36,655 nt of DNA from a virus. Under the pieces are notes generated by a model. The model had not been told where the DNA came from and ran no database searches. It saw only the letters and a list, made by a program, of their open reading frames with translations. Positions within the stretch are counted from its first letter, which is position 1. Each line of letters starts with the position of its first letter. The DNA is taken from positions 1 to 36,655 of the IMG/VR virus record IMGVR_UViG_3300024974_000013. One strand, written 5' to 3'. Positions 5,998 through 18,797 of the stretch are shown here, one piece after another. The translations under genes and the position numbers were made by a program.

Positions 5998-7476
5998 CTA
6001 GAGAATGAATTGAACCGCAGCCGCGAACACGTCGAACTGATTGACCGTGTTCGGTGGGATGATCGCGTTGACGCGGTTGACGTCGCTTGTCGAGCGCACC
6101 ACGATCAGATCGTTGATGAACTGGTCTAGGTCTTCCAGCAGACCGGCGCGCTCCAAATCGGCCGCCGCCGCGATCAGCGTGTTGCGGATCAGCTTCGGCG
6201 TCGCGATCGGCTGCCCAGGCTGGATCTTGCCGAGCACGTCGTCACCGGCCAATTTATGGCGCGGGTAATCGCGCAGCACCGCCATACGGAACGCATAGCG
6301 CATATAATCGACAGTCCACTTCGTATTCAGCTTCAGCAAGCTGACATCCTCGACGCCGAAGCTGTTTTGTTGATAGGTCGTGACCACCTGCTCGATCATC
6401 GCGTTGCCGGCCTGGTCGAAAATGATCGAACTGATGCCATCATGCAGCATATTGTTGCGTTCGGTGTCGACAAATCGGTCGGCCTCGACCGGCGCCAGCA
6501 CGCTCGGCAGGCTGATTCCACGGAATGGTCGCGCCGGATCGTTGGCGCCGGCAAACTCGATCGCCGCGCCGAACTGCGCCGAAATCACCCACGGTAAGGA
6601 TGGCGACTTGTTCAGACCGCTGAACGACGATTGCGCGCTGTTGCGCGCCGAGCCATACGCGGACAGCGCCGAGAACGAGCCACTCTTGTGCGCGAACACA
6701 TGCCCGGTGCGCATGTCCATGCCGCCCCAGCGACTGTCCAGCTCGGCTTCCAGCTGCTGGATGTTTGCGGTGTCGGTCCAGCCGCACAGGATCGTGTATG
6801 GGTTCATCGTCGACATCGCCGAGATCGCCGCCGAAACGTCCGGATTGCCGGTGCCGGTAACGCTTGATGCAAACGCCACCGCCAGACCGGTCGGCAGGAA
6901 CTCGCCACTGTAATAGTTGACCCGGTAATCGATATCGTTGCCATCGACGCCCTTGTGCCGCGCCGTGCAGGTAACCACGCCCAACGCGTTGGTGGCCGTC
7001 ACCGCGCCGTCCGGATCCGCGTTGATCGCCGCCGCCACCGCCGTTGCGATGTTGGTCATCGTCTCGCCGGCAACGACCTGCACCGACAGCCGCCGGCCGC
7101 CGATGTATAGATAGAGCGTGCCCGAGGCGGTGACCGCACCGGTCAGGGTGATCGTCTGCGCCGCCGCCACGCCCGCGACCAGGTCGTCGAGCGCCAGTGC
7201 CCAGCATTCGGTGTACGGGTTGACCCGCAACGCCGCCTCGATCTGCTGCGCCAGCATCGAGCCGCGCCCGAAATAATTGACGCCGTCTTCCTTGCGGCTG
7301 ACGCGGGTCAACACGCCTGCGGCCACGGTGCCGGTAGACAGCCTTTGGCCCAACACCAGCATCTTGTGCGGCATCACCGGCAGGCCGCGCACCGCCTTGG
7401 TGTGATCGATCTCGGCATAGGCGCCGGGGACGCGCCAGTCGAGGGGGATGGTTAAAAATGGAATGTTGTCTGGCAT
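5998..7476 (-). CDS. Contractile tail sheath protein, Mu gp39 (L) homologue
   Basis: The 492-residue product starts MPDNIPFLTIPLDWRVPGAYAEIDHTKAVRGLPVMPHKMLVLGQRL, the classic opening of Mu gpL sheath proteins. The conserved C-terminal domain is present (KWTVDYMRYAFRMAVLRDYPRHKLAGDD and PKLIRNTLIAAAADLERAGLLEDLDQF). The middle (about 110-180) is a beta-rich insertion domain that faces outward in sheath structures. It is the contractile part of the myovirus tail and sits between gp38 and the tube gene. Full length. Confidence 0.95.
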   Translation of the reverse strand: MPDNIPFLTIPLDWRVPGAYAEIDHTKAVRGLPVMPHKMLVLGQRLSTGTVAAGVLTRVSRKEDGVNYFGRGSMLAQQIEAALRVNPYTECWALALDDLVAGVAAAQTITLTGAVTASGTLYLYIGGRRLSVQVVAGETMTNIATAVAAAINADPDGAVTATNALGVVTCTARHKGVDGNDIDYRVNYYSGEFLPTGLAVAFASSVTGTGNPDVSAAISAMSTMNPYTILCGWTDTANIQQLEAELDSRWGGMDMRTGHVFAHKSGSFSALSAYGSARNSAQSSFSGLNKSPSLPWVISAQFGAAIEFAGANDPARPFRGISLPSVLAPVEADRFVDTERNNMLHDGISSIIFDQAGNAMIEQVVTTYQQNSFGVEDVSLLKLNTKWTVDYMRYAFRMAVLRDYPRHKLAGDDVLGKIQPGQPIATPKLIRNTLIAAAADLERAGLLEDLDQFINDLIVVRSTSDVNRVNAIIPPNTVNQFDVFAAAVQFIL

Positions 7477-7479
7477 GGC

Positions 7480-7674
7480 TTAGCCTTTGGGTTTTGATTT
7501 TGTGGTTACGGCATCGTCCGGTGTGACGATCTCGATATCGCCGGCATTCAGGCGACGCAGCCAGTAGTTGGAGGCGATTACGGTTTCGCCGTCGGGCCGC
7601 AAAAAAAGGCCGGTTTCCTTGCGGACGTTGTCTCCGGCTGCGGGTTTGATTCTGATTGATTGTCCGAAAATCAT
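7480..7674 (-). CDS. DUF2635 family small tail protein, Mu gp38 homologue
   Basis: This 64-residue protein (MIFGQSIRIKPAAGDNVRKE, ETVIASNYWLRRLNAGDIEI) matches the small DUF2635 protein found just upstream of the sheath gene in Mu-like phages. The same domain, clearly diverged, makes up the first 50 or so residues of the large protein at 9107-11050. The two copies flank the protease gene at 7685-9097. It ends with a lysine-rich tail. Confidence 0.85.
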   Translation of the reverse strand: MIFGQSIRIKPAAGDNVRKETGLFLRPDGETVIASNYWLRRLNAGDIEIVTPDDAVTTKSKPKG

Positions 7675-7684
7675 GCGATCTCCA

Positions 7685-9097
7685 TTAATAGGCCTGGAAA
7701 AAACTCAAATCGATGTATGCTGGTGCCGCGCCAGGCAGCAATGAATTCATTACAGACTCTATTTGTGCCGTAACGTCTGGAAACCATATACCGCTGCCGT
7801 CCATCACGGTAGCCATGCTCAGCAAAACAGGCTGATAGTCCGTTCCTCCCGCTGGATCAATTGTTGCAAAAATTGGCGACCCGCTATCCCCGCTGTTGAT
7901 CGTGAATCCCCAGGTATACAGGCTGCTCAAGCTGTGGTTAGTCGCGATGGGGGGATGATATGGATTTGCCATTGCCTCCTCATAGGTTTGCCTATTCAGA
8001 GTCCCATCAATCCATTGGTTCCATCCATGTATCATCTGCCACCGGCCCATAACGCTGTTCAGGATACCCAGATAGCTAACAGGCGCTGGCGACATGTTCA
8101 GGCATTGCGCTTGCGCGCCTGCATTACCCATCATCAAAACCGGAAAATCCTGTTTCATGTTTTGGTCGGGCAGATACGTTTCGTAATTCGCCGGCATCAT
8201 TTTCATGATGGTTATGCGGGGACTTCCAAGGTAAGGAGAGACATCAAAATCCGAATCAAACAGGTGTAAGAAATCCCCTCTGTCTGGGTAGAGCCGTTGC
8301 GTCGCCACTACATGTCGCGTCTGATAATTCCCCGCTCTGTCGAGATAAATGAATTTCTGCCCAATGTAGGCCGCCGTGTGGTTACACGTCATAGCAATAC
8401 GCGGGTGAATCAGCGTTAGCGGGTAGCCATTCGGCTTATTTGTTCCGTTACCTTCGCGATACACGCAGATTCCGCTTAGATCGACAAATCCATTTGCGAA
8501 TAAATTAGGGTTTCTGGTGATGGAGAAATTATTTACATCCGCGTTTGTTGTGGTGAACATGCACTGCGTATTCACCCCATTCAAATTGTCTGGGTTGTGA
8601 ATGCGCCAATAATCGTATGCAGAGGTCTTCCCAGCGACCATGCTCAAAACGGCATTTTGAACATGCAAAGCTAGATTTTTTTCATTGCCGTTTACCACAT
8701 TGGATATGTAATTTTTTATGGTGGAGAAGACGGCGTCAACTGCCTCCCTATTCACTTGGTGGGATAATACCTTCCTGTTTAGCCTATTGTCGCTCACCAA
8801 AAATTTAACGTCCCGTTGACCGGCCGTTATATAGTTGGGTCTAAACGCACCACCGATCATGTCGGCGTCCGTCGGGGACAAATTCTCCAAACTATATCCT
8901 TGAGGCACCGTCGCGGTAAATCCCTGGATTGCATTAGACAACGTTACGTTGTGCATGGATTTATTGTGCAAAACAGTATCCGCAGCCGTAGATGGGAGGC
9001 CCTCATAAAAATCTGCGATCTTCACATCGAGCGACCCCTGTTCGAACGCATTCGGCCCACGCACTCTTATCCCACCACCATGTATAATTTTCATCAT
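7685..9097 (-). CDS. Trypsin-like serine protease in the tail operon
   Basis: This 470-residue protein has a trypsin-type active site: residues 401-408 read NSGDSGSP with Ser405 as nucleophile; TLIHPRIAMTCNHTA places a histidine at 240 where trypsins have it; RGDFLHLF offers Asp275 as third member. The N-terminal 190 residues show no recognised domain and no signal peptide. The second ATG (9094) has better spacing to GAGGGA than the first. It lies between two DUF2635 copies, downstream of a fibre-like gene, and is poorer in G+C than neighbouring tail genes, suggesting transfer. A virion-borne protease that helps entry is one reading; an intracellular role is another. Confidence 0.75.
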   Translation of the reverse strand: MMKIIHGGGIRVRGPNAFEQGSLDVKIADFYEGLPSTAADTVLHNKSMHNVTLSNAIQGFTATVPQGYSLENLSPTDADMIGGAFRPNYITAGQRDVKFLVSDNRLNRKVLSHQVNREAVDAVFSTIKNYISNVVNGNEKNLALHVQNAVLSMVAGKTSAYDYWRIHNPDNLNGVNTQCMFTTTNADVNNFSITRNPNLFANGFVDLSGICVYREGNGTNKPNGYPLTLIHPRIAMTCNHTAAYIGQKFIYLDRAGNYQTRHVVATQRLYPDRGDFLHLFDSDFDVSPYLGSPRITIMKMMPANYETYLPDQNMKQDFPVLMMGNAGAQAQCLNMSPAPVSYLGILNSVMGRWQMIHGWNQWIDGTLNRQTYEEAMANPYHPPIATNHSLSSLYTWGFTINSGDSGSPIFATIDPAGGTDYQPVLLSMATVMDGSGIWFPDVTAQIESVMNSLLPGAAPAYIDLSFFQAY

Positions 9098-9106
9098 TCC
9101 CTCTTA

Positions 9107-11050
9107 TCAACCCACAGACCAATCATTCGATGCGTGATAAGTGAATCGATATACTTGATTCGCTGCATTCGTGCCGGCCGCAAAGGTCGATCCGCCATTG
9201 ATGGTTTGACCAGCAGGGGATGCCTGCGTGCCGATAGTCAAGGCGGTGTGGCCGTTAACGAGGCGTATCGGTACTTCCTGCCCTACTGTAGGATTTGGTG
9301 GCAGATTGACCGTTAAAGCCGCTTGCGCCGCCGTGGTGATATTGGAACAGGTTGTGCCCTCGGCGAGATTGATGGTTCCCGTCGATGATGCCGCCGCAAC
9401 TTTGTGTGGTTTGCGGATCGATGGATATGGGCTCCAGAGATTCGCGCCTGCGTTAGCATAGCGAGAGTTTCCAATCGGTTTATTTTGGTTAGAAGCAGTG
9501 GCAAATGCGGTCACTTGAGACAATATCAAGTTGTTGTGCAACATCCACCCCGTCATCGTTCCATCTACCCCGGAAATATCGTCAGCCAGGTATAAACCGC
9601 AGGCGACTGGGAGTATTTTTGGACCTCCCGTGCCTGGAACCAGTATCGTCTGCCATGCTTTGCCATCGCGCGTTACAAATACACAACTAGGACCGTTGCC
9701 AACGCCATTGGTTGTTCCGGATAACGCAAAGACGTGTGGGTGATGCGGTACTTGACCATTGTAATTAGTTACACTGTAAGCGGAGGGTAAAGTAATCGCC
9801 TGCCACACACCAAGGGAAGCATTTACTGCGTCGTAATCAGCAAGGTATGCTGTTGTCAACCCACTCTGGCACACAATGACTTTATTGCCGAAGAAGACAA
9901 TGTATGGCACTGCCGTCAGAGCGGCTGGTAAATCAGCGGCAACCCATGCGGCGGTAGCCGCCGTAGCGCCTTTTAACACCGCGCACTTAGAGCTGTTGGT
10001 AAATACGATTACTGCAAACGGGCCGGAATCACTTTTAAACTGTTGTGGAGAGGCCAATGAATATAAAGAACCATTAGCTAGGCTTAAGTTGCAACCAGCA
10101 GGCAAATCCAACAGGGAGATCGTATCCGAATTGGTATCAATCAGCGCTGACTTTCCAAGAGTAGCGTTATCGATTGTCAGAACGCTGTTTGGACCGCACA
10201 TCATTGGCGCGATCCACGCCGTATTAGACGCGTGCAACGCAGTGGTATAGGTGCCCCAGGTAGAATAAGGAGCGTTGAGATAGTAGGCGTTAACCCCAGC
10301 TTCAATACTTACGATGCGCTTACCATCCGTTGCATATTTTGGCGATGTCGTTCCGGCACGCGGATCTATTTTGAAGAAATTGACTAAATCGAAAGTCGCC
10401 TGAATGTCACCCGCTGCTTTAGCGACCATGAAAAGCGGCTTCGGCGCATTCGCTGACGGCGTAAAACCGCCGAAGGACAAAAAATCAACCGGAGATGAAT
10501 ATAGATTCATCAACGCAACGGGGTTTACCGGTTGCAAATGGAATCCGATATTGCCGCCAAGATTGTTACCGGCATAGAATACGTCCCCGCCCGCCGTCGT
10601 GCCATTGAATTTCACAAGGGCGTTAGTATCGGTCGCACTGGCTAATTCTCCTACCGAACCAATGGTCGCCAATAAATTCGCCAACGTATCGGTGCGTGGG
10701 ATGATATTAGCGATCAAATCCCCATTGCTGTCCAGGGCGACCGATCCTGTCCACTGATTGCCATCACAGATATAGAGAGTCTTGGTGGCCTTGACCAGGG
10801 CCACGCCGACGCCAAAATCCGTCGCACTCGCCCTATCCGCCAATTGATCATACACCACAATCCTTCCGACGCCTATCGGCCCCGCAGGCGGTACTCCCCC
10901 GACTTCGGTCACGCTGCCGTCCGCCACCCGTCGCTGCCAATAGGCCGATGCGATCACGACCTCGCCGCCGGCGGCGAGGTCGGTGCCGTCGGGCTTCTTG
11001 ACGGTCTGGCCGCCGGCGGGTTGCACGGTAACGGATTGCCCTATGATCAT
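9107..11050 (-). CDS. DUF2635-fused tail fibre-like protein with Asp-box motif
   Basis: Residues 1-52 (MIIGQSVTVQPAGGQTVKKP, GEVVIASAYWQRRV) are a DUF2635 domain like the gp38 homologue at 7480-7674. The remaining ~590 residues are rich in G, N, T and S with fibre-like character: LYICDGNQWTGSVALDSNGD, a linker with NLLATIGSVGELAS, and around residues 455-468 VFVTRDGKAWQTI, an Asp-box pattern (S/T-x-D-x-G-x-x-W) seen in sialidase-like beta-propellers. The C-terminus (LTIGTQASPAGQTINGGSTF, NQVYRFTYHASNDWSVG) resembles fibre tips. Much of the gene is AT-richer than its neighbours. Probable receptor-binding or surface-binding protein anchored via the DUF2635 part. Confidence 0.7.
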   Translation of the reverse strand: MIIGQSVTVQPAGGQTVKKPDGTDLAAGGEVVIASAYWQRRVADGSVTEVGGVPPAGPIGVGRIVVYDQLADRASATDFGVGVALVKATKTLYICDGNQWTGSVALDSNGDLIANIIPRTDTLANLLATIGSVGELASATDTNALVKFNGTTAGGDVFYAGNNLGGNIGFHLQPVNPVALMNLYSSPVDFLSFGGFTPSANAPKPLFMVAKAAGDIQATFDLVNFFKIDPRAGTTSPKYATDGKRIVSIEAGVNAYYLNAPYSTWGTYTTALHASNTAWIAPMMCGPNSVLTIDNATLGKSALIDTNSDTISLLDLPAGCNLSLANGSLYSLASPQQFKSDSGPFAVIVFTNSSKCAVLKGATAATAAWVAADLPAALTAVPYIVFFGNKVIVCQSGLTTAYLADYDAVNASLGVWQAITLPSAYSVTNYNGQVPHHPHVFALSGTTNGVGNGPSCVFVTRDGKAWQTILVPGTGGPKILPVACGLYLADDISGVDGTMTGWMLHNNLILSQVTAFATASNQNKPIGNSRYANAGANLWSPYPSIRKPHKVAAASSTGTINLAEGTTCSNITTAAQAALTVNLPPNPTVGQEVPIRLVNGHTALTIGTQASPAGQTINGGSTFAAGTNAANQVYRFTYHASNDWSVG

Positions 11051-11059
11051 GGTCTAGTC

Positions 11060-11656
11060 CTATGGTAACGAGGTGGTATCGGTCAATTCGGGCCGGCTCG
11101 CCGTATAAACCGGCGGCTCGGCGATCCATTTTTGGTGTTCGGCCTGCGTCTGGTGCGGGTCCACGTCGTAATCGGCGTGGAAGGTCGCGAAGTCGGCCAG
11201 GGCTGCCAGGGCGGTGTCATCGATCGCCGCATTCGTCGCCTTGGCCGTCAGCTGTAAACTGCCTGCCTGTAGCCCGCTGTTTAGCCAGACAGCGCCCTTG
11301 GCGAAGTCGGCGCTTTTTACCGACCAGACCGTGCTGGTCGTTTTCAAACTGTCGAGATAGGACGCCAGGATGTCGATGATCTGGTATAAGCCGATCGTCT
11401 GCGCATCGCCGTGCCGGGCGGCTTCGACGCCGCGGGCATTGCGGGCAATGCAGATCAGATCGAAGCGGACCTCGGCATACGCATCCCCGTAACCCACCTG
11501 GCCGGCGACGGTATAAACCGCCGGCGCAGAACTCGCGAAGCGTTTCACCACCGTGGCGCCGTCCCCATCCGGCATGACTGCCACTTCGCGCAGGTTCGCC
11601 GCGATCGGCGAAAGCTTCACGGCGGCGATCAGTTCCTGTTCCAGCTCGACCAGCAT
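11060..11656 (-). CDS. DUF1834 tail protein, Mu gp37 homologue
   Basis: The 198-residue protein starts MLVELEQELIAAVKLSPIAANLREVAVMPDGDGATVVKRF and carries AEVRFDLICIARNARGVEAARHGDAQTIGLYQIIDIL, which is the pattern of the Mu gp37 / DUF1834 family, probably a tail completion or terminator protein. It follows the gp36 homologue, as in Mu. Downstream, the usual gp38 is displaced by the fibre/protease insertion. The C-terminal 30 residues are polar. Confidence 0.85.
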   Translation of the reverse strand: MLVELEQELIAAVKLSPIAANLREVAVMPDGDGATVVKRFASSAPAVYTVAGQVGYGDAYAEVRFDLICIARNARGVEAARHGDAQTIGLYQIIDILASYLDSLKTTSTVWSVKSADFAKGAVWLNSGLQAGSLQLTAKATNAAIDDTALAALADFATFHADYDVDPHQTQAEHQKWIAEPPVYTASRPELTDTTSLP

Positions 11657-12303: not shown

Positions 12304-13365
12304 TTAACCCGCGCCGGTGCTGCCGACAGACAACTGCCAGAAGCCGTAAATGCCTGTCGCCCGCGCTTCCGCGCCGAACTTGTACTCGGCCTTCATGAAC
12401 ACGTCCTCATTCTCCATCGAGGTTTGCGAGACGAATTCAGGGCGCTTGCGCATCTGCACGATGAACGGTTTGACGGCCTTGCTGGTGACATGCAGGAACC
12501 AGGCGGTATCGGAGGTCAGCGCCGGATTGACGATCACCTTGGCCGTGCCCTTGTAAGGGTTCGGGCTGTTGTCATCGAGCTTGTCCGCGTTGATCAGTTT
12601 GTTGGCGACCGCTTCCAGCGCCGGCGGCACTTCCAGTGTGTCCGGTACCAGGCGCAGAGGCATGCCTTCATCGTCCTTAAACTTCATGATCGCGGTGCGT
12701 GCCGCGCCGTAACTGGCCAACGACGCGGCCGGAGTCGCGGAACTCAAGACTGCCGTCAGCTTATTGCTGACCGACGCGCCGGCCACCGAGTGGTCGGTAT
12801 CGTAGAAATACTGGCCGTCGATGCCGGTGTTGGTAAATGCACCGTTTTTCAAACTGTCGACGATGATGTCGTTCAGCTCGGCGGCGCTGTCGCCGGCCAT
12901 TTGGGCCTGCGCATTGTAGATGCCGAGACTGTCATCCTCGATGTCGTTCCGGAGCACGGCGATCGTGGTTTCCCAGTCCTCGTTGATCGCGGTGTATTTG
13001 CCCGCCGCCAGCGATTTGACCGACTTCTCGCCGACCCACTTTCGCATCATCGGGAAGCGGCTTAGCCAGGCATAATCCTCGCTTTTGCTGGTCGACAAGA
13101 TCTCCATCGCGGTCGCCTGCCAATTGCCGACTTCCGCCTTCAGCGCATTGTTGAAGACGGTTTTAAGACCGGTAAAAATCGTATTGATCGTGGCTTTGTT
13201 GACGATCATGCCGCCGAACGCGACCGGCAAACCGATGGTTGCGGCAACTGCGTCATGTACGTGATCGACGGAGTCGCCGACCGCGAAGGCGTTAAACGCC
13301 AACATCGGCGCCAGGATGGCCAGCACGATGGTCAGGCCATAAACTAAGAATTTTCGTGATTTCAT
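12304..13365 (-). CDS. Major capsid protein, Mu gpT homologue, with signal-peptide-like N-terminal extension
   Basis: From residue 53 (MIVNKATINTIFTGLKTVFNNALK) through residue 353 the protein follows Mu gpT: YAWLSRFPMMRKWVGEKSVKSL, TAINEDWETTIAVLRNDIEDDSLGIY, TDTAWFLH-type region and a C-terminal YGFWQLSVGSTGAG. Ahead of it lie 52 residues starting MKSRKFLVYGLTIVLAILAP and ending a hydrophobic stretch at FNAFA, which looks like a Sec signal peptide. The upstream start (13365) has a good AAGGAG site; the start at 13209 has none evident. Either the prohead protease removes the extension or the short form is used. Confidence 0.88.
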   Translation of the reverse strand: MKSRKFLVYGLTIVLAILAPMLAFNAFAVGDSVDHVHDAVAATIGLPVAFGGMIVNKATINTIFTGLKTVFNNALKAEVGNWQATAMEILSTSKSEDYAWLSRFPMMRKWVGEKSVKSLAAGKYTAINEDWETTIAVLRNDIEDDSLGIYNAQAQMAGDSAAELNDIIVDSLKNGAFTNTGIDGQYFYDTDHSVAGASVSNKLTAVLSSATPAASLASYGAARTAIMKFKDDEGMPLRLVPDTLEVPPALEAVANKLINADKLDDNSPNPYKGTAKVIVNPALTSDTAWFLHVTSKAVKPFIVQMRKRPEFVSQTSMENEDVFMKAEYKFGAEARATGIYGFWQLSVGSTGAG

Positions 13366-13383
13366 CGTTTTATTGCTCCTTGA

Positions 13384-14235
13384 TTAGGCGCTAGGGGTAA
13401 TCAGAACGATTACGTGGCCGAGTTTCGCGGCATCGTTGGTACCGCCGACGGTGATCGACAGCACATCGCCGACCGCCAGTACGTTCGCGGCCGACGGCGT
13501 TACGTTGTCCACGTCACCGGCGGCGCTGCCTGCCTGGGTGACGGTGATGGCGCCAGTGGTCACGGCAACGGCGCCGATCTTCGCGGTCAGCGTGGCATCG
13601 CCGGTCGTCAATGCGCCGTCGATCACGCTGTAAATCTTGCTGATGGTGCCGGCAATCGGCGAGACCACGCGCTTGACTTCGGCGGTTGCGCCGACCAGGT
13701 TGATGTCGCGAATCTCCAGCAGCATCTTATTCGCGCCGCCGCCCAGGTTGGCGCGCGCCGTTGCCGCCGCGGCCAAATCCGATAGATTGCTCGCCGCCAG
13801 CAAGGCGCCGGCTGGAGCGACGAGGGCATCCTGACCCATGCGGACCCAGACACCATCGCTGTCGACATCTTCGATGATGCCGGCCGGGGATCGTGTACCG
13901 CCACCGCTGGTTTTCGCGACGGTTTGGTCGTCGACGATGTAACAGACACTGCCGACCTGCGCCAAGGCGATGGCGTCGCCGCCGCCGGAATTGGCCCAAC
14001 GGAAAATGCCGTTTTCCACGTTCGCCCGTACATCGCCCGCTAGGCCGGCGCTGTTGTCTACCTGTTCGCTGATGCGGCCGACGCAGACCAGGCCGGTCGC
14101 AACCGCGCCTTTGGTCAAATAGCCGCTGGAATTGATCGCGCCGATGCTGCCGGCAAAAACCTTGACAGCCGCCAGCGGATAACTGAATTGCTGCCCGGCC
14201 CGCGATGGGGTGTTACGGTCTGTGGTTAGAGCCAT
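13384..14235 (-). CDS. Capsid decoration-like protein with fibre-type linker
   Basis: The 283-residue product has three parts. Residues 1-140 resemble DUF2190-type capsid cement proteins (QFSYPLAAVKVFAGSIGAINSSGYL; CVGRISEQVDNSAG). Residues ~146-166 (LLAASNLSDLAAAATARANLG) are the repeat typical of tail fibre trimerisation linkers. The C-terminal ~110 residues are a beta-rich domain with alternating T, V, A and G (TTGDATLTAKIGAVAV). The gene is between the protease/scaffold and the capsid gene, where Mu-like phages have a small head protein. Role as an outer capsid decoration is inferred from position and N-terminal domain. Confidence 0.7.
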   Translation of the reverse strand: MALTTDRNTPSRAGQQFSYPLAAVKVFAGSIGAINSSGYLTKGAVATGLVCVGRISEQVDNSAGLAGDVRANVENGIFRWANSGGGDAIALAQVGSVCYIVDDQTVAKTSGGGTRSPAGIIEDVDSDGVWVRMGQDALVAPAGALLAASNLSDLAAAATARANLGGGANKMLLEIRDINLVGATAEVKRVVSPIAGTISKIYSVIDGALTTGDATLTAKIGAVAVTTGAITVTQAGSAAGDVDNVTPSAANVLAVGDVLSITVGGTNDAAKLGHVIVLITPSA

Positions 14236-14237
14236 GA

Positions 14238-14786
14238 TTATTTAGCCTCTTTCGTTGCTTTGAATTCGTCGGCGCCGATGTTCAGCGCGGAGCACACCGC
14301 CAGCTCGTCGGCGGTCAAACCGGTCGCATTATCGACCGCCGGCGCCTTGCCGCCCGTCTGCATGCCGGACAATGCGGCAATCGGTTGCGCGGTGCCGATG
14401 AACGCTGTCAGCGCGGCCATATCGGACTGGCCAAGGCCCCGCGCCCATTGTTCCTGCGCCGGCAACAGACGGCCATCGGCCAGCGCCGGTTCGATCAGCG
14501 CATTGATGTCGCGTTCGACATCTTTCGCCTTCAACGCGGCCAGCTCGGTTTGCATCGCGGTCACTACGGCGACCGGGGCATATTTAGCAGGGTCCGGCGC
14601 GGCGGCTTTCAGCGCGGCGATTTCGGCGTCACGCGCAGTCAGCAAACCGAACACACCGGAACCGGCGGCCGCTACGTCCGGCGTGATCATGCCTTTCAGC
14701 TTGTCCAGCTCGGCAGAGATCGCGGCCGCATCGGCGGTAATCGGTAGGTTCAGCAAGTAGCGCAAGCGCTCCAGCAGTTCATCCAT
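14238..14786 (-). CDS. Internal-start scaffold protein, gpZ-like
   Basis: An in-frame ATG at 14786 (protein start MDELLERLRYLLNLP) follows a strong GAGGAG ribosome site with six bases between. Translation from here would yield a 182-residue helical scaffold without the protease domain, sharing its stop with the protease gene. In Mu the scaffold Z is made the same way from within I. The start and ribosome site are seen; the use is inferred. Confidence 0.7.
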   Translation of the reverse strand: MDELLERLRYLLNLPITADAAAISAELDKLKGMITPDVAAAGSGVFGLLTARDAEIAALKAAAPDPAKYAPVAVVTAMQTELAALKAKDVERDINALIEPALADGRLLPAQEQWARGLGQSDMAALTAFIGTAQPIAALSGMQTGGKAPAVDNATGLTADELAVCSALNIGADEFKATKEAK

Positions 14787-15427: not shown

Positions 15428-15877
15428 ATGGCTACGATAGAACTGAACGACGAGGAGATCCGCCGCGCGCTGAGCAACTTGCTGGCGACATCCGGCAATC
15501 TCAACCCTGTGCTATCCGAGATCGGCGAGTACCTGATCGAATCGACCAAGCAGCGCTTCGGCTCGCTGACCGGTCCGGACGGCGAACGCTGGGAGGATAA
15601 CAGCCCAGTCACGGTCGAGCGCAAGGGGCGTAATCAGCCACTGACCGAGCACGGATCGCTCGGCGAACAGATCCATGCGCAGCTGCTCGGCAACAACACC
15701 CTGGCGGTCGGCAGCAGCATGGAATATGCCGCCATGCAGCAGTTTGGCGGCAGCCGCTCCGAGTTTCCGAATTTGTGGGGAGACATTCCGGCGCGGCCGT
15801 TCTTGGGGATCTCGGGGGATGACAAGACCAAGATTTTGGACATCATCGCGGCGCATTTGCGCGATGCGGCGAATTGA
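15428..15877 (+). CDS. Virion morphogenesis protein, Mu gpG homologue
   Basis: The 149-residue protein reads MATIELNDEEIRRALSNLLATSGNLNPVLSEIGEYLIESTKQRFGSLTGPDGERWEDNSP and ends MQQFGG...IPARPFLGIS, the full pattern of the Mu G / P2 S type morphogenesis family (head-tail joining). It is complete but alone: I and the rest of the late left arm run the other way, and the neighbour on its right is the leftward cargo group. In Mu it follows MuF (gp30), which here is some 20 kb away at the right window edge. No strong ribosome site precedes the ATG. Confidence 0.9.
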   Translation: MATIELNDEEIRRALSNLLATSGNLNPVLSEIGEYLIESTKQRFGSLTGPDGERWEDNSPVTVERKGRNQPLTEHGSLGEQIHAQLLGNNTLAVGSSMEYAAMQQFGGSRSEFPNLWGDIPARPFLGISGDDKTKILDIIAAHLRDAAN

Positions 15878-16008: not shown

Positions 16009-16581
16009 CTATTTGGCCGGCTTAAGCGTTACGCTGGTAAGCTCCTGGCCTTCAAAGAAGCAATAGATTTGAAACTTCTCCTCGGTGCCGATGGCGTTGC
16101 TGGCTTTAAAGCTTGTGCCGATCACCGCATTACCGTTTTCCTTGGGTGAATAGCTGACATCCCAAAACCAGGACGCATCGACCGACGAGGGGATCGTCGC
16201 CCGGCTTTTGGCCTCTTCCGTGCAAATCTTTAATCCCTTCTCGCGCTCCATCACCACTTTTGCGGACGGCACTCTGTTCGCCTTTATGTCGTTCAGATCA
16301 AACCGCACGACCTCTGGAAAAGCCCCCTCTCCGCACTGCACAAAAAATGCCGGATTGCCCGGCTTGCTCTTGTCTTTCGATACGCCCGCCGAATAGGGAG
16401 ACATCGATTTTTTGCAGGTCGGGTGATTAACCGCCAGCTGGTTGAGCATGTGCGCTACGTCCTTTCGGTATTTTTTATTCTTCCCGATGATAAGCCCAAG
16501 CTCTTTTTCTTGAATCTCTGCGGCGGCCGACGCTGAAAATATAATCGCCATGATCGAGAGTGCAACGGTGAGTTTTTTCAT
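16009..16581 (-). CDS. Secreted protein of unknown function (cargo)
   Basis: The product starts MKKLTVALSIMAIIFSASAAA, a signal peptide with a cleavage pattern ASAAA-E, followed by about 170 residues with four cysteines (one in HPTCKK, one in VQCGEG, one in LKICTEE, one in QIYCFFEG) and no domain I recognise. An ATG 12 bases upstream (16593) is possible, but the hydrophobic start favours 16581. It is the last gene of the leftward repressor-side group, AT-richer than phage structural genes, and probably expressed in the lysogen. A periplasmic lysogenic-conversion factor is one guess. Confidence 0.7.
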   Translation of the reverse strand: MKKLTVALSIMAIIFSASAAAEIQEKELGLIIGKNKKYRKDVAHMLNQLAVNHPTCKKSMSPYSAGVSKDKSKPGNPAFFVQCGEGAFPEVVRFDLNDIKANRVPSAKVVMEREKGLKICTEEAKSRATIPSSVDASWFWDVSYSPKENGNAVIGTSFKASNAIGTEEKFQIYCFFEGQELTSVTLKPAK

Positions 16582-16638
16582 TTTTTCATCCATCGATTAA
16601 AAGTTAGTTGGGTTACGGCTGACGCCTAACCTAACACG

Positions 16639-17160
16639 CTAAGCGTCTATCGTTTCACCAGGCGGCAATAATTTGTAACTGCGGCCCTGCTTTAGCCGAA
16701 CGATATGGCCTAGCTCATGCGCGAAATACAGCACATAGCGAAGTGTTTCCTGATCGTAGCCTGGCGCAAAGCCGTAAATCTTGCTTTGCAGAATGCCTTG
16801 GTTTTGCTGGATGACTGGCAATAGCAAGCCCATCACCTCGCGGTAAAGCGGGTCTTGTTCGGCGAAGCAGGTCATCAGTGCCTTGAAGCTGTCCTTTTCT
16901 TGCTGGCTGACGTGATCACCTACCATTTCATAAGCCATCTTTTGCAGGGCAGTCCTGGCCCAATCCCAATTGCCGGAATTGATTGCGCCCTCGATATCGG
17001 CGGCCGCGTATCCGCCGGGCTGGGTTACGCTGGAGATTCTGGGTTGCGCCGTCTGTCGATCCGGCGTAGCAGCCGGCTTTTTAGGCTGCTTGCTGAAGGA
17101 ATTGATGGCTACCTTGAACCCCAAAAGACACATCACCAAAATAATAATCGCCAACCACAT
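16639..17160 (-). CDS. Membrane-anchored protein with probable winged-helix C-terminus (cargo)
   Basis: This 173-residue protein has one N-terminal membrane segment (LAIIILVMCLLGFKVAI), a proline/threonine-rich linker (residues 25-50) and a helical domain (NWDWARTALQKMAYEMVGD...EKDSFKALMTCFAEQDPLYREVMGLLLPVI). The last 45 residues (TLRYVLYFAHELGHIVRLKQGRSYKLLPPG) look like a helix plus a wing of a winged-helix fold. The string HELGH mimics a zinc protease motif but is not backed by a third ligand. The ribosome site GGGAGG precedes the ATG. No known function. Confidence 0.7.
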   Translation of the reverse strand: MWLAIIILVMCLLGFKVAINSFSKQPKKPAATPDRQTAQPRISSVTQPGGYAAADIEGAINSGNWDWARTALQKMAYEMVGDHVSQQEKDSFKALMTCFAEQDPLYREVMGLLLPVIQQNQGILQSKIYGFAPGYDQETLRYVLYFAHELGHIVRLKQGRSYKLLPPGETIDA

Positions 17161-17204
17161 AATTACCTCCCATTTTCTCTACGAACGTGCTCAATATTTA
17201 GAAA

Positions 17205-17221
17205 GGTACGCACAGCGTACC
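17205..17221 (-). terminator. Perfect 7-bp hairpin after the TPR-like gene
   Basis: GGTACGC-ACA-GCGTACC is a perfect inverted repeat with a three-base loop. It lies one base beyond the stop codon of the 17222-17647 gene, and in the leftward direction is followed by TTTCTAAAT. That is the layout of an intrinsic terminator, and it would separate the TPR-like gene from the next leftward gene. Confidence 0.6.
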
Positions 17222-17647
17222 CTACGAACTGACTTTTTTCGCATTGATCTTTTCCTGTCTGGTGTTCAATAACGCAATTTCTGCTTCGATTAATTCACGT
17301 TTTTTATCGCGAATTGTTTTAGAAACTTTGGAGAACCCACCTTTCTGTCTCCATCCCCATTGCTGATACAGCGTTTCACGCGCGTCAGCATCCGCATCGA
17401 CTCTATCATGCAATTGCTGTAACCATTTGAACGCATCGTCATAACGACCAGCTAAATGGTAATAGCGAGCCACCCTGAAATACTCTTTAAGACCCCATTC
17501 GGTTGAACAAGTTTTCATCAACTCATAAGCCCTCAGCAAACTCGCAATTGCCAAGTCGTATTCCTTTTCCCCTGCCTGAGCTGTGGCTTTTTTCAATAAC
17601 TCTCGAATTACGTCATGACTCGAATCATCACCAGATAAACCCAACAT
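17222..17647 (-). CDS. TPR-like protein of unknown function (cargo)
   Basis: The 141-residue product has helical hairpins of TPR type: EKEYDLAIASLLRAYELM (residues 26-44) and YFRVARYYHLAGRYDDAFKWLQQLHDR (57-82). The C-terminal third is charged and helical (KTIRDKKRELIEAEIALLNTRQEK). TPR repeats bind other proteins, so it may partner the neighbouring membrane proteins. GGGAGG precedes the ATG by six bases. The gene is AT-rich compared with the phage core and is followed by a hairpin terminator. Confidence 0.7.
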   Translation of the reverse strand: MLGLSGDDSSHDVIRELLKKATAQAGEKEYDLAIASLLRAYELMKTCSTEWGLKEYFRVARYYHLAGRYDDAFKWLQQLHDRVDADADARETLYQQWGWRQKGGFSKVSKTIRDKKRELIEAEIALLNTRQEKINAKKVSS

Positions 17648-17676
17648 ACTAGCCTCCCGTTAAATCCGCCCGCGCT

Positions 17677-18387
17677 TCAATCAATTGCCGCTTTGATGCG
17701 CTTACCGATGTAAGCCGGCGCGATCATTGTTGACACGCTCAGGATAAGCGCCATAGTCAGCAAGGCGAACTGGAGCGCATCGTGCCAAAACGTTTCGAAT
17801 GAGGGCGGAATCAGGAAGAGCTTTAGCACTATCAGCACCAGACAAAAGATGCTCAGGATCGACGCCATTGTTCCCATCAGCGGCTCAAAAACCGGTAGGC
17901 GGATTTGCAATTTGCCGCCTTCATAGCGTAACACATCGCCGCCCCAGGCCTTTTTGATTTGGCGCGGGTTGAAGGCATGATCAATCATCAAACGAGTCAA
18001 GGCCGCACGTTCCAGTTTGGAGGCGCGTATGCCGGTTCGGCGGAAAAACTCCTCATACTCATCCATTTCCTTTTGAAACGCAGCATGACTGTCCATTTGC
18101 TGAGCCTCCAGCGTTGATTTGATTTCCTCTGCAATACATTGCAGCTGCTCCAGATCCTCCGCACATAAATCCTTAAACTTGGCGCTGCCATACAGCGACT
18201 GGCTGATCCTTTCTACCGCCTGCCGGCAGTTGGCCTCATCACAGGTTTTTAGCAACAGATGCACTGCGCGGTTGATGGGATTAGGCTTGTTTTCTGGCGC
18301 AGCGGTTACATGAATATGAACCTCCGCGCCGTCTTCGGCCTTTACCGCAATTCCTACATCCCCCTTGATTTCTAACGGTCCCTTCAT
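17677..18387 (-). CDS. Two-TM membrane protein coupled to the repressor gene
   Basis: The 236-residue protein overlaps the repressor stop by four bases (ATGA type), so the two are probably co-translated. Residues 5-29 (LEIKGDVGIAVKAEDGAEVHI) echo the repressor's C-terminal glycine-rich strand pattern. Residues ~40-95 (RAVHLLLKTCDEANCRQAVERISQSLYG...) form a helical domain, residues 120-165 another, and two membrane segments lie at about 172-193 and 204-225. It should be made in the lysogen. Superinfection exclusion is a reasonable guess from position and topology; no family function is known to me. Confidence 0.75.
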   Translation of the reverse strand: MKGPLEIKGDVGIAVKAEDGAEVHIHVTAAPENKPNPINRAVHLLLKTCDEANCRQAVERISQSLYGSAKFKDLCAEDLEQLQCIAEEIKSTLEAQQMDSHAAFQKEMDEYEEFFRRTGIRASKLERAALTRLMIDHAFNPRQIKKAWGGDVLRYEGGKLQIRLPVFEPLMGTMASILSIFCLVLIVLKLFLIPPSFETFWHDALQFALLTMALILSVSTMIAPAYIGKRIKAAID

Positions 18388-18797
18388 TTCGACTTCTTAG
18401 GATCCTTGTACATATTGACGGTGAAGTTGCCAGAAGCCGGAGATGTTACCTGCTGGCCGAGATTGCCATGCACGACGATGCCGTTATCGGCAGGACTACC
18501 AACCAACACTACGCGCAGCGCCGCGTCTTTGACGGCCTGGGGACTGGCGCGATAGCGTTCGAGTAACAGCATTTCGTCAGCGGGCAAGGTCGAAGTCGAG
18601 CGCACACCGGTCAAGATGTATTGCACATCCGCACCTGCTGCGGCGATCCCTGCGTAATAACTCCCATCTGGACACCTTTCTCCAGACTCGTATTTCAATT
18701 GAGCACCCTTCTGGACGCCACCAATCTGGCCGAATTCTGTCTGATTCCGTCCTAGCCGTAAGCGCTCCTCCCGCAGCCGTTCAAAAATAGTTCCCAT
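18384..18797 (-). CDS. Phage repressor, XRE-type HTH
   Basis: The 137-residue protein starts MGTIFERLREERLRLGRNQTEFGQIGGVQKGAQLKYESGERCPDGSYYAGI, an XRE-type helix-turn-helix with the phage repressor sub-pattern, followed by GADVQYILTG. There is no S24 autoprotease domain, so induction must differ from lambda-like repressors. The C-terminal strand (IVVHGNLGQQVTSPASGNFTV, residues 107-127) resembles the N-terminus of the next protein. No Shine-Dalgarno precedes the ATG, so a leaderless or very short-leader transcript is possible. It is divergent from the Ner-like gene and should bind the intervening operator. Confidence 0.88.
   Translation of the reverse strand: MGTIFERLREERLRLGRNQTEFGQIGGVQKGAQLKYESGERCPDGSYYAGIAAAGADVQYILTGVRSTSTLPADEMLLLERYRASPQAVKDAALRVVLVGSPADNGIVVHGNLGQQVTSPASGNFTVNMYKDPKKSK

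Follow-up and report, generated by a model that had tools for sequence, protein, structure and literature searches.

The locus analysed here lies in the tail operon of a Mu-like phage, recovered as IMG/VR virus record IMGVR_UViG_3300024974_000013, of which positions 1 to 36,655 (36,655 nucleotides, referred to below as the window) encode, among other proteins, a Mu portal, Mu gp27, GemA, a Mu-like protease I, gp36, gp37 and the tail sheath. Between the gp37 and gp38 homologues of this phage lie two further genes, the first of which encodes a protein of 647 amino acids (aa) that starts with a DUF2635 domain, as in gp38, and continues into a long body that is exchanged between related phages. 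This arrangement is best explained by a modular protein of the receptor-binding type, which probably uses DUF2635 as its anchor. The three open reading frames named in an earlier note on this DNA, i.e., the fused gene, its neighbour and the stand-alone gp38 homologue, were recovered at the coordinates listed below, all on the minus strand, and the module genes share the strand of the tail operon, with gaps of about 10 bases between them.

Features of the locus (all on the minus strand):
9107..11050, −, whole gene of the putative DUF2635-fused fibre/receptor-binding-type protein, 647 aa
10895..11050, −, DUF2635 anchor domain, residues 1-52 (PF10948; predicted local distance difference test, pLDDT, 89-95; groups with the five further fused copies in a single clade)
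10571..10894, −, linker, residues 53-160, with an Mtd_N-like stretch (residues ~116-150); conserved between alleles
9431..10333, −, variable body, residues 240-540, probable beta-propeller (weak model; Foldseek matches to kelch/WD40-type propellers; partly alignable with contig L003 only)
9110..9418, −, C-terminal beta domain, residues 545-647 (predicted strands; possibly fibre-tip-like, by composition)
7685..9097, −, second module gene, 470 aa, possible serine protease (PS00135-type motif; no family match)
8684..9097, −, N-terminal domain of the second gene, residues 1-138 (56% nucleotide identity to L003 vs 94% in the rest)
7868..7903, −, TINSGDSGSPIF, serine-protease signature, residues 399-410 (Ser405)
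7480..7674, −, ordinary gp38 homologue, stand-alone DUF2635, 64 aa (PF10948, 50.8 bits)
11060..11656, −, gp37 homologue, upstream neighbour (Pfam Phage_Mu_Gp37, 7e-7; C-terminus conserved across alleles)
5998..7476, −, tail sheath, downstream neighbour (PHROG 165, 6.5e-162)

Two DUF2635 copies around a two-gene insert

The order gp36-gp37-gp38-sheath is found in Mu and in Vibrio phage martha, which bears out the Mu-type succession of gp37, gp38 and sheath given in the earlier note. Little or nothing separates gp37 from gp38 in these two phages, in 14 prophages (mostly of Betaproteobacteria) and in approximately 60 viral contigs with related sheaths, and in Mu and some 80 relatives the sheath gene adjoins this pair. 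The contiguous Mu-type order is not found in the window, where about 3.4 kb containing two genes separate gp37 from gp38, and the insert at this position measures 2.3-3.6 kb across the lineage. Among the loci in which both genes were seen, the sole other gp37-gp38 spacers of note are one of 137 bases in three relatives without the module (L034, L054 and L070), where it takes the place of the usual ~10 bases, and one of 377 bases in L014, both of which are too short to hold a fibre gene.

Contractile phages, Mu-like and others, conserve the gp38/DUF2635 family, for which no role was found in the literature searched by family name. A scan of the whole record returned exactly two copies, both above the Pfam cut-off of PF10948 (26.6 bits), with 34.8 bits in the 647-aa protein (residues 9-50) and 50.8 bits in the stand-alone gene, and the proposal that the large protein starts with a domain related to the gp38 homologue is thus upheld. 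The earlier note had also made its module depend on this N-terminus having the DUF2635 fold. AlphaFold2 predicts a compact fold for residues 1-50 by themselves, with a pLDDT of ~89-95; the remainder was poorly modelled, from an alignment of 14 sequences, and no solved gp38 structure was found for comparison with the model of the domain.

Within the linker that follows the anchor, a match to Mtd_N (2.8e-5) reaches 24.4 bits, just below the cut-off of 26.3. The window body matches no family by sequence, and the structural matches, which come only from a low-confidence model and are no more than suggestive, are mostly to beta-propellers of the kelch/WD40 type, on which basis the bodies of the window and L003 are probable beta-propellers. 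The sialidase label was considered and dropped, as the Asp-box (BNR) repeat pattern applied to the window body is absent from it, and only a probable propeller is claimed here. The C-terminal domain (residues 545-647) has no Pfam match, and neither window protein found anything by tblastn in 50,697 phage records. The description of the protein as fibre-like stands for its architecture, while the window body belongs to no recognised sequence family.

The composition of the locus is uneven. The overall and third-position GC contents (GC/GC3) are 0.60/0.69 for the DUF2635 domain and linker, 0.51/0.50 for the body and 0.47-0.48/0.55 for the 470-aa gene, as compared with 0.63/0.78 for gp37 and 0.63/0.82 for the sheath, and the GC3 of the bodies across the alleles is 0.38-0.53, against 0.81-0.85 in the sheaths. 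The body and the 470-aa gene are AT-richer than the tail genes around them, as the earlier note stated; the tape measure gene is AT-rich as well (GC 0.53). Given that the composition of the anchor and linker is nearer to that of the tail genes and the bodies are AT-rich, the anchor looks resident and the payload acquired.

Exchange of the bodies and origin of the proposed anchor

A long DUF2635 protein (598-903 aa), complete or partial, is encoded at the same site in 11 other IMG/VR contigs, and six fused alleles can be distinguished, in every one of which (6/6) the DUF2635 domain exceeds the Pfam cut-off and the gene lies between gp37 and gp38. The alleles are as follows:

Window: 647 aa, followed by a 470-aa gene
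L003/L005 and relatives: 636 aa, followed by a 469-aa gene
L025/L026/L027/L098: 598 aa, followed by a 293-aa gene
L031: 887 aa, followed by a 276-aa gene
L032: 764 aa, no second gene
L033: 903 aa, no second gene

The N-terminal part can be aligned across all of the alleles and the bodies cannot, except for that of the window with L003. When L026 is compared with L031, the nucleotide identity is 96% in gp37, 85% in gp38, 92% in the sheath, 91% in the anchor and linker and 42% (i.e., unalignable) in the body, a conserved N-terminus with an exchanged C-terminus being the mark of modular receptor-binding proteins. As read from these alignments, the combination of a conserved anchor with at least five unrelated bodies exchanged behind it is domain exchange.

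Two of the bodies belong to known fibre families. Residues 234-598 of L025 match PHROG 11419 ("tail fiber", 4.4e-55) and the tail spike of PDB entry 9sij (1.6e-7), and the body also finds, by tblastn, minor tail proteins of Gordonia and Arthrobacter phages; its GDSL-lipase matches (1e-5 to 5e-4) are below the cut-off, and it looks like an SGNH hydrolase. Residues 346-733 of L031 match PHROG 4201 ("tail fiber", 2.7e-34), and fibres of Klebsiella phages are found by tblastn; the GQSN and QGES motifs alone suggest that this body may be a SASA-type esterase. The L032 body looks like a NodB-type deacetylase, with matches to HfsH (1.6e-7) and Polysacc_deac_1 (8e-4) that both fall below the curated cut-offs, and that of L033, to judge by GDS and DxxH motifs alone, looks like an SGNH hydrolase. 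The idea of a module had been staked on related phages carrying a DUF2635-fused fibre, and the 11 further contigs, together with the fibre-family bodies of L025 and L031, provide them. One further apparent DUF2635 domain, at residues 291-410 of L003 and found with our own gp38 profile, was discarded as an artefact of a partial fused reading frame inside that profile.

With regard to the origin of the fusion, the sheath tree places the module as a single gain, when the contigs whose gp37-gp38 region is unseen are set aside. In the DUF2635 tree, the six fused copies form one clade (Shimodaira-Hasegawa-like approximate likelihood ratio test, SH-aLRT, 97.9) among the gp38s of the same lineage; the ~58 columns of the alignment do not resolve the exact sister of this clade. 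In the 82 sampled DUF2635 loci of viral contigs and genomes, all of the proteins from outside the lineage stop within 21 residues of the end of the domain, and 399 genomes of the Rhodocyclus family, searched for the fused anchor, contained short DUF2635s only. Long DUF2635 frames in two genomes (239 and 253 aa) turned out to read through from upstream and to finish with the domain.

These trees are most simply accounted for if gp38 was duplicated locally and one copy then became fused. The lineage's own gp38 is the most likely ancestor of the anchor copy, the foreign part being the body and the second gene. The alternative of a mobile cassette with a DUF2635 repeat at either end was rejected, given that the fused and stand-alone copies are only ~40% identical and the fused copies form a clade of their own. 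Thus, of the two origins offered in the earlier note, a duplication is retained as the source of the N-terminal DUF2635, and the notion of a foreign cassette that brought its own anchor is not, in that the DUF2635 copies are not the ends of a cassette.

The second gene and the neighbouring regions

The 470-aa protein had been called trypsin-like, a label which is backed by one signature motif and confirmed by no family or structure. The motif TINSGDSGSPIF (residues 399-410) fits the trypsin-serine pattern, which we take to be PROSITE PS00135, and is fully conserved between the window and L003, the 469-aa protein of which also shares His240 (8378-8380), the acidic residues 281/283/285 and Ser405. 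The pattern turns up in 11 of 200,000 shuffles of the 470-aa protein, and, with the conserved candidate residues, it tilts the balance towards a protease. On a somewhat less probable reading, which is independent of how the fused protein is explained, the GDSGSP motif is incidental and the protein serves as a structural or lectin partner. This reading is favoured by the searches of Pfam, NCBIfam, PHROG and PDB, in which no match to a protease was obtained (none to an S1 family or PDB structure even at relaxed E-values), and by the second genes of the other alleles, which likewise have no protease match. The L025 one is similar to the final part of a "minor tail protein" (PHROG 36751, 2e-22), so that the second genes look like structural partners. 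The AlphaFold2 model (pLDDT 34, from two distinct sequences) was discarded, and the protein found nothing by tblastn among 72,556 plasmids and chance-level matches only in 299 Pseudomonadota genomes.

Residues 1-138 of the second gene and the fibre body form one contiguous divergent tract between the window and L003, which would follow from contact between the N-terminal domain and the body, or simply from a single recombination that replaced both. A role as a structural partner or in maturation is slightly favoured for the 470-aa protein, because this domain diverges with the body and the catalytic-looking part is 94% conserved; such a partner may mature the fibre or act on the cell surface.

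Some observations concern the regions around the module. The gp37 gene is a mosaic (compared in L003 3369-3953, L033 2727-3326 and the window 11060-11656), the N-terminal part of which varies with the head type, while the last ~40 residues (FHADYDVDPHQTQAEHQKW...) are conserved, and a point inside gp37 is, on this comparison, the mark of a swap between head and tail modules. The gene order of the window is also unusual for a Mu-like phage (14238-15877 and 31754-36655), with gp32 to the tail running leftwards (−) and the early genes, gp27, terminase, portal and gp30 running rightwards (+); a gp31-like reading frame (15428-15877, +) lies divergently beside gp32. The gp32-gp31 junction and its flanking genes are shared with L026/L105 at 96-98%, so that it is not a private misassembly at this point; the canonical order is found in L039. 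The interval 16009-18797 (−) contains, downstream of a probable repressor (18384-18797, with a helix-turn-helix-like start), small AT-rich genes, mostly without a Pfam match (one has a weak TPR match), and looks like a lysogeny or accessory region joined to the head genes.

Function, rival explanations and significance

The whole is best explained, with a probability of roughly 0.68, by a modular receptor-binding protein that has a DUF2635 anchor, occupies a new genomic site and is carried on the virion. In a single lineage of Mu-like phages, the gp38 gene would have been duplicated in place between gp37 and gp38, with the upstream copy becoming the N-terminal anchor of a large receptor-binding-type protein. 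The domain make-up, the single origin and the repeated exchange of the body, often with an accessory second gene, behind the conserved anchor and linker are shown by the data above. As a putative component of the virion, the protein may dock through its DUF2635 at the gp38 site or among the gp38 subunits, replacing some or standing beside them, most plausibly in the region of the terminator and the top of the sheath, with fibres that would project from the neck or upper tail and a distal body that may bind or trim polysaccharide at the cell surface, like the deacetylases and esterases of tail fibres. Mu gp37, the tail terminator, touches the last layer of the sheath (PMC11915804), and the order of terminator, DUF2635 fusion, DUF2635 and sheath suggests a place for DUF2635 at or close to the top of the sheath. 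In the sister contig L027, gp48 is followed (12770-14262) by a short fibre of the canonical kind (321 aa) and by a gene of the assembly type; the window ends before this region. The module would, given this fibre, be a second adsorption device, most likely near the top of the sheath.

Several points weigh against this explanation. Mu gp38, a probable structural protein, is not placed in the cryo-electron microscopy maps of either state (PMC11915804), so that its part as an anchor is what we infer. The ordinary fibre of L027 means that the module is not needed as the sole adsorption device, and outside the lineage neither the window body nor the 470-aa protein has a relative by sequence, the models of both being of low confidence. 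All of the carriers are, moreover, metagenomic contigs, several with neighbouring sample numbers, which may represent few sites.

That gp38 was not seen in either state of Mu would also fit an assembly or chaperone domain that guides a fibre destined for the baseplate, or is removed from it, perhaps by the protease-like neighbour, a gene of this kind directly following the fused gene in two alleles. This is nevertheless unlikely, given that L032 and L033 have no second gene, that L027 already has a baseplate fibre gene, and that the anchor is kept (91% between L026 and L031) as the bodies change, which fits a docking constraint. The esterase and deacetylase payloads could also alter the surface of the host itself, as a late or lysogen-made enzyme of superinfection exclusion or serotype conversion that never joins the virion. 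That would be a surprising role for a protein that starts with a tail-operon domain and is encoded in the tail operon between two tail genes, with two bodies homologous to tail fibre or spike proteins and, in the window allele, an enzymatic nature that is putative, and it is considered improbable. The AT-rich payloads and the retained stand-alone gp38 might, finally, be taken to mean that a spare copy of gp38 became fused by chance, and without function, to foreign DNA that had hitchhiked along; six long open alleles, a conserved anchor, repeated replacement by bodies of the receptor-binding type and the lack of any broken copy among those seen make this the least probable of the readings, and a very improbable one.

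The fused proteins share with stand-alone DUF2635/Mu gp38 (PF10948, PHROG 208) the same domain, which folds alone, and the same operon position, and differ in carrying ~550-850 further residues, whereas the stand-alone form ends just past the domain. In the modular receptor-binding proteins, such as G7C gp63.1, gp66 of Pectobacterium phage Possum and those of Klebsiella prophages, a conserved N-terminus is likewise joined to an exchangeable enzymatic or binding C-terminus, and two of the present bodies are homologous to tail-fibre families, as in those proteins (PMC9569702, PMC13123978). The Possum tail fibre deacetylates O-polysaccharide (PMC9569702), and receptor-binding proteins with SGNH domains are widespread in Klebsiella prophages (PMC13123978). 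Unlike in these systems, the anchor here is DUF2635, the gene lies between tail terminator and sheath rather than after the baseplate genes, and the window body is of a different kind, a probable propeller. A precedent for fibres at the head-tail junction in addition to those of the baseplate is provided by the neck fibres gp80-82 of Anabaena phage A-1(L), where gp82N has a pilus-like fold and binds the pentadecameric neck protein, with no link to DUF2635 shown (PMC10966104). The Mtd-like stretch of the linker recalls the Mtd protein of Bordetella phage BPP-1; this homology covers ~35 residues only, and no C-type lectin variable domain was identified here.

These results suggest a second means, not described before, by which proteins for host recognition are mounted on a contractile tail. 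A further and more tentative step, for which the odds fall somewhat short of even, is that DUF2635 holds, in phages of this lineage, a second set of receptor-binding or trimming enzymes at the neck or along the sheath, independently of the baseplate fibres, with gp38 as the exposed docking subunit of a plug-in slot for the exchange of whole enzyme domains. A DUF2635 that carries large exchangeable fibres predicts an exposed position on the tail and indicates where to look for it, and the catalogue of phage receptor-binding proteins would gain a genomic site and an anchor that are missed by searches near the baseplate genes only. If true, a plug-in enzyme slot would give DUF2635/gp38 its first functional meaning.

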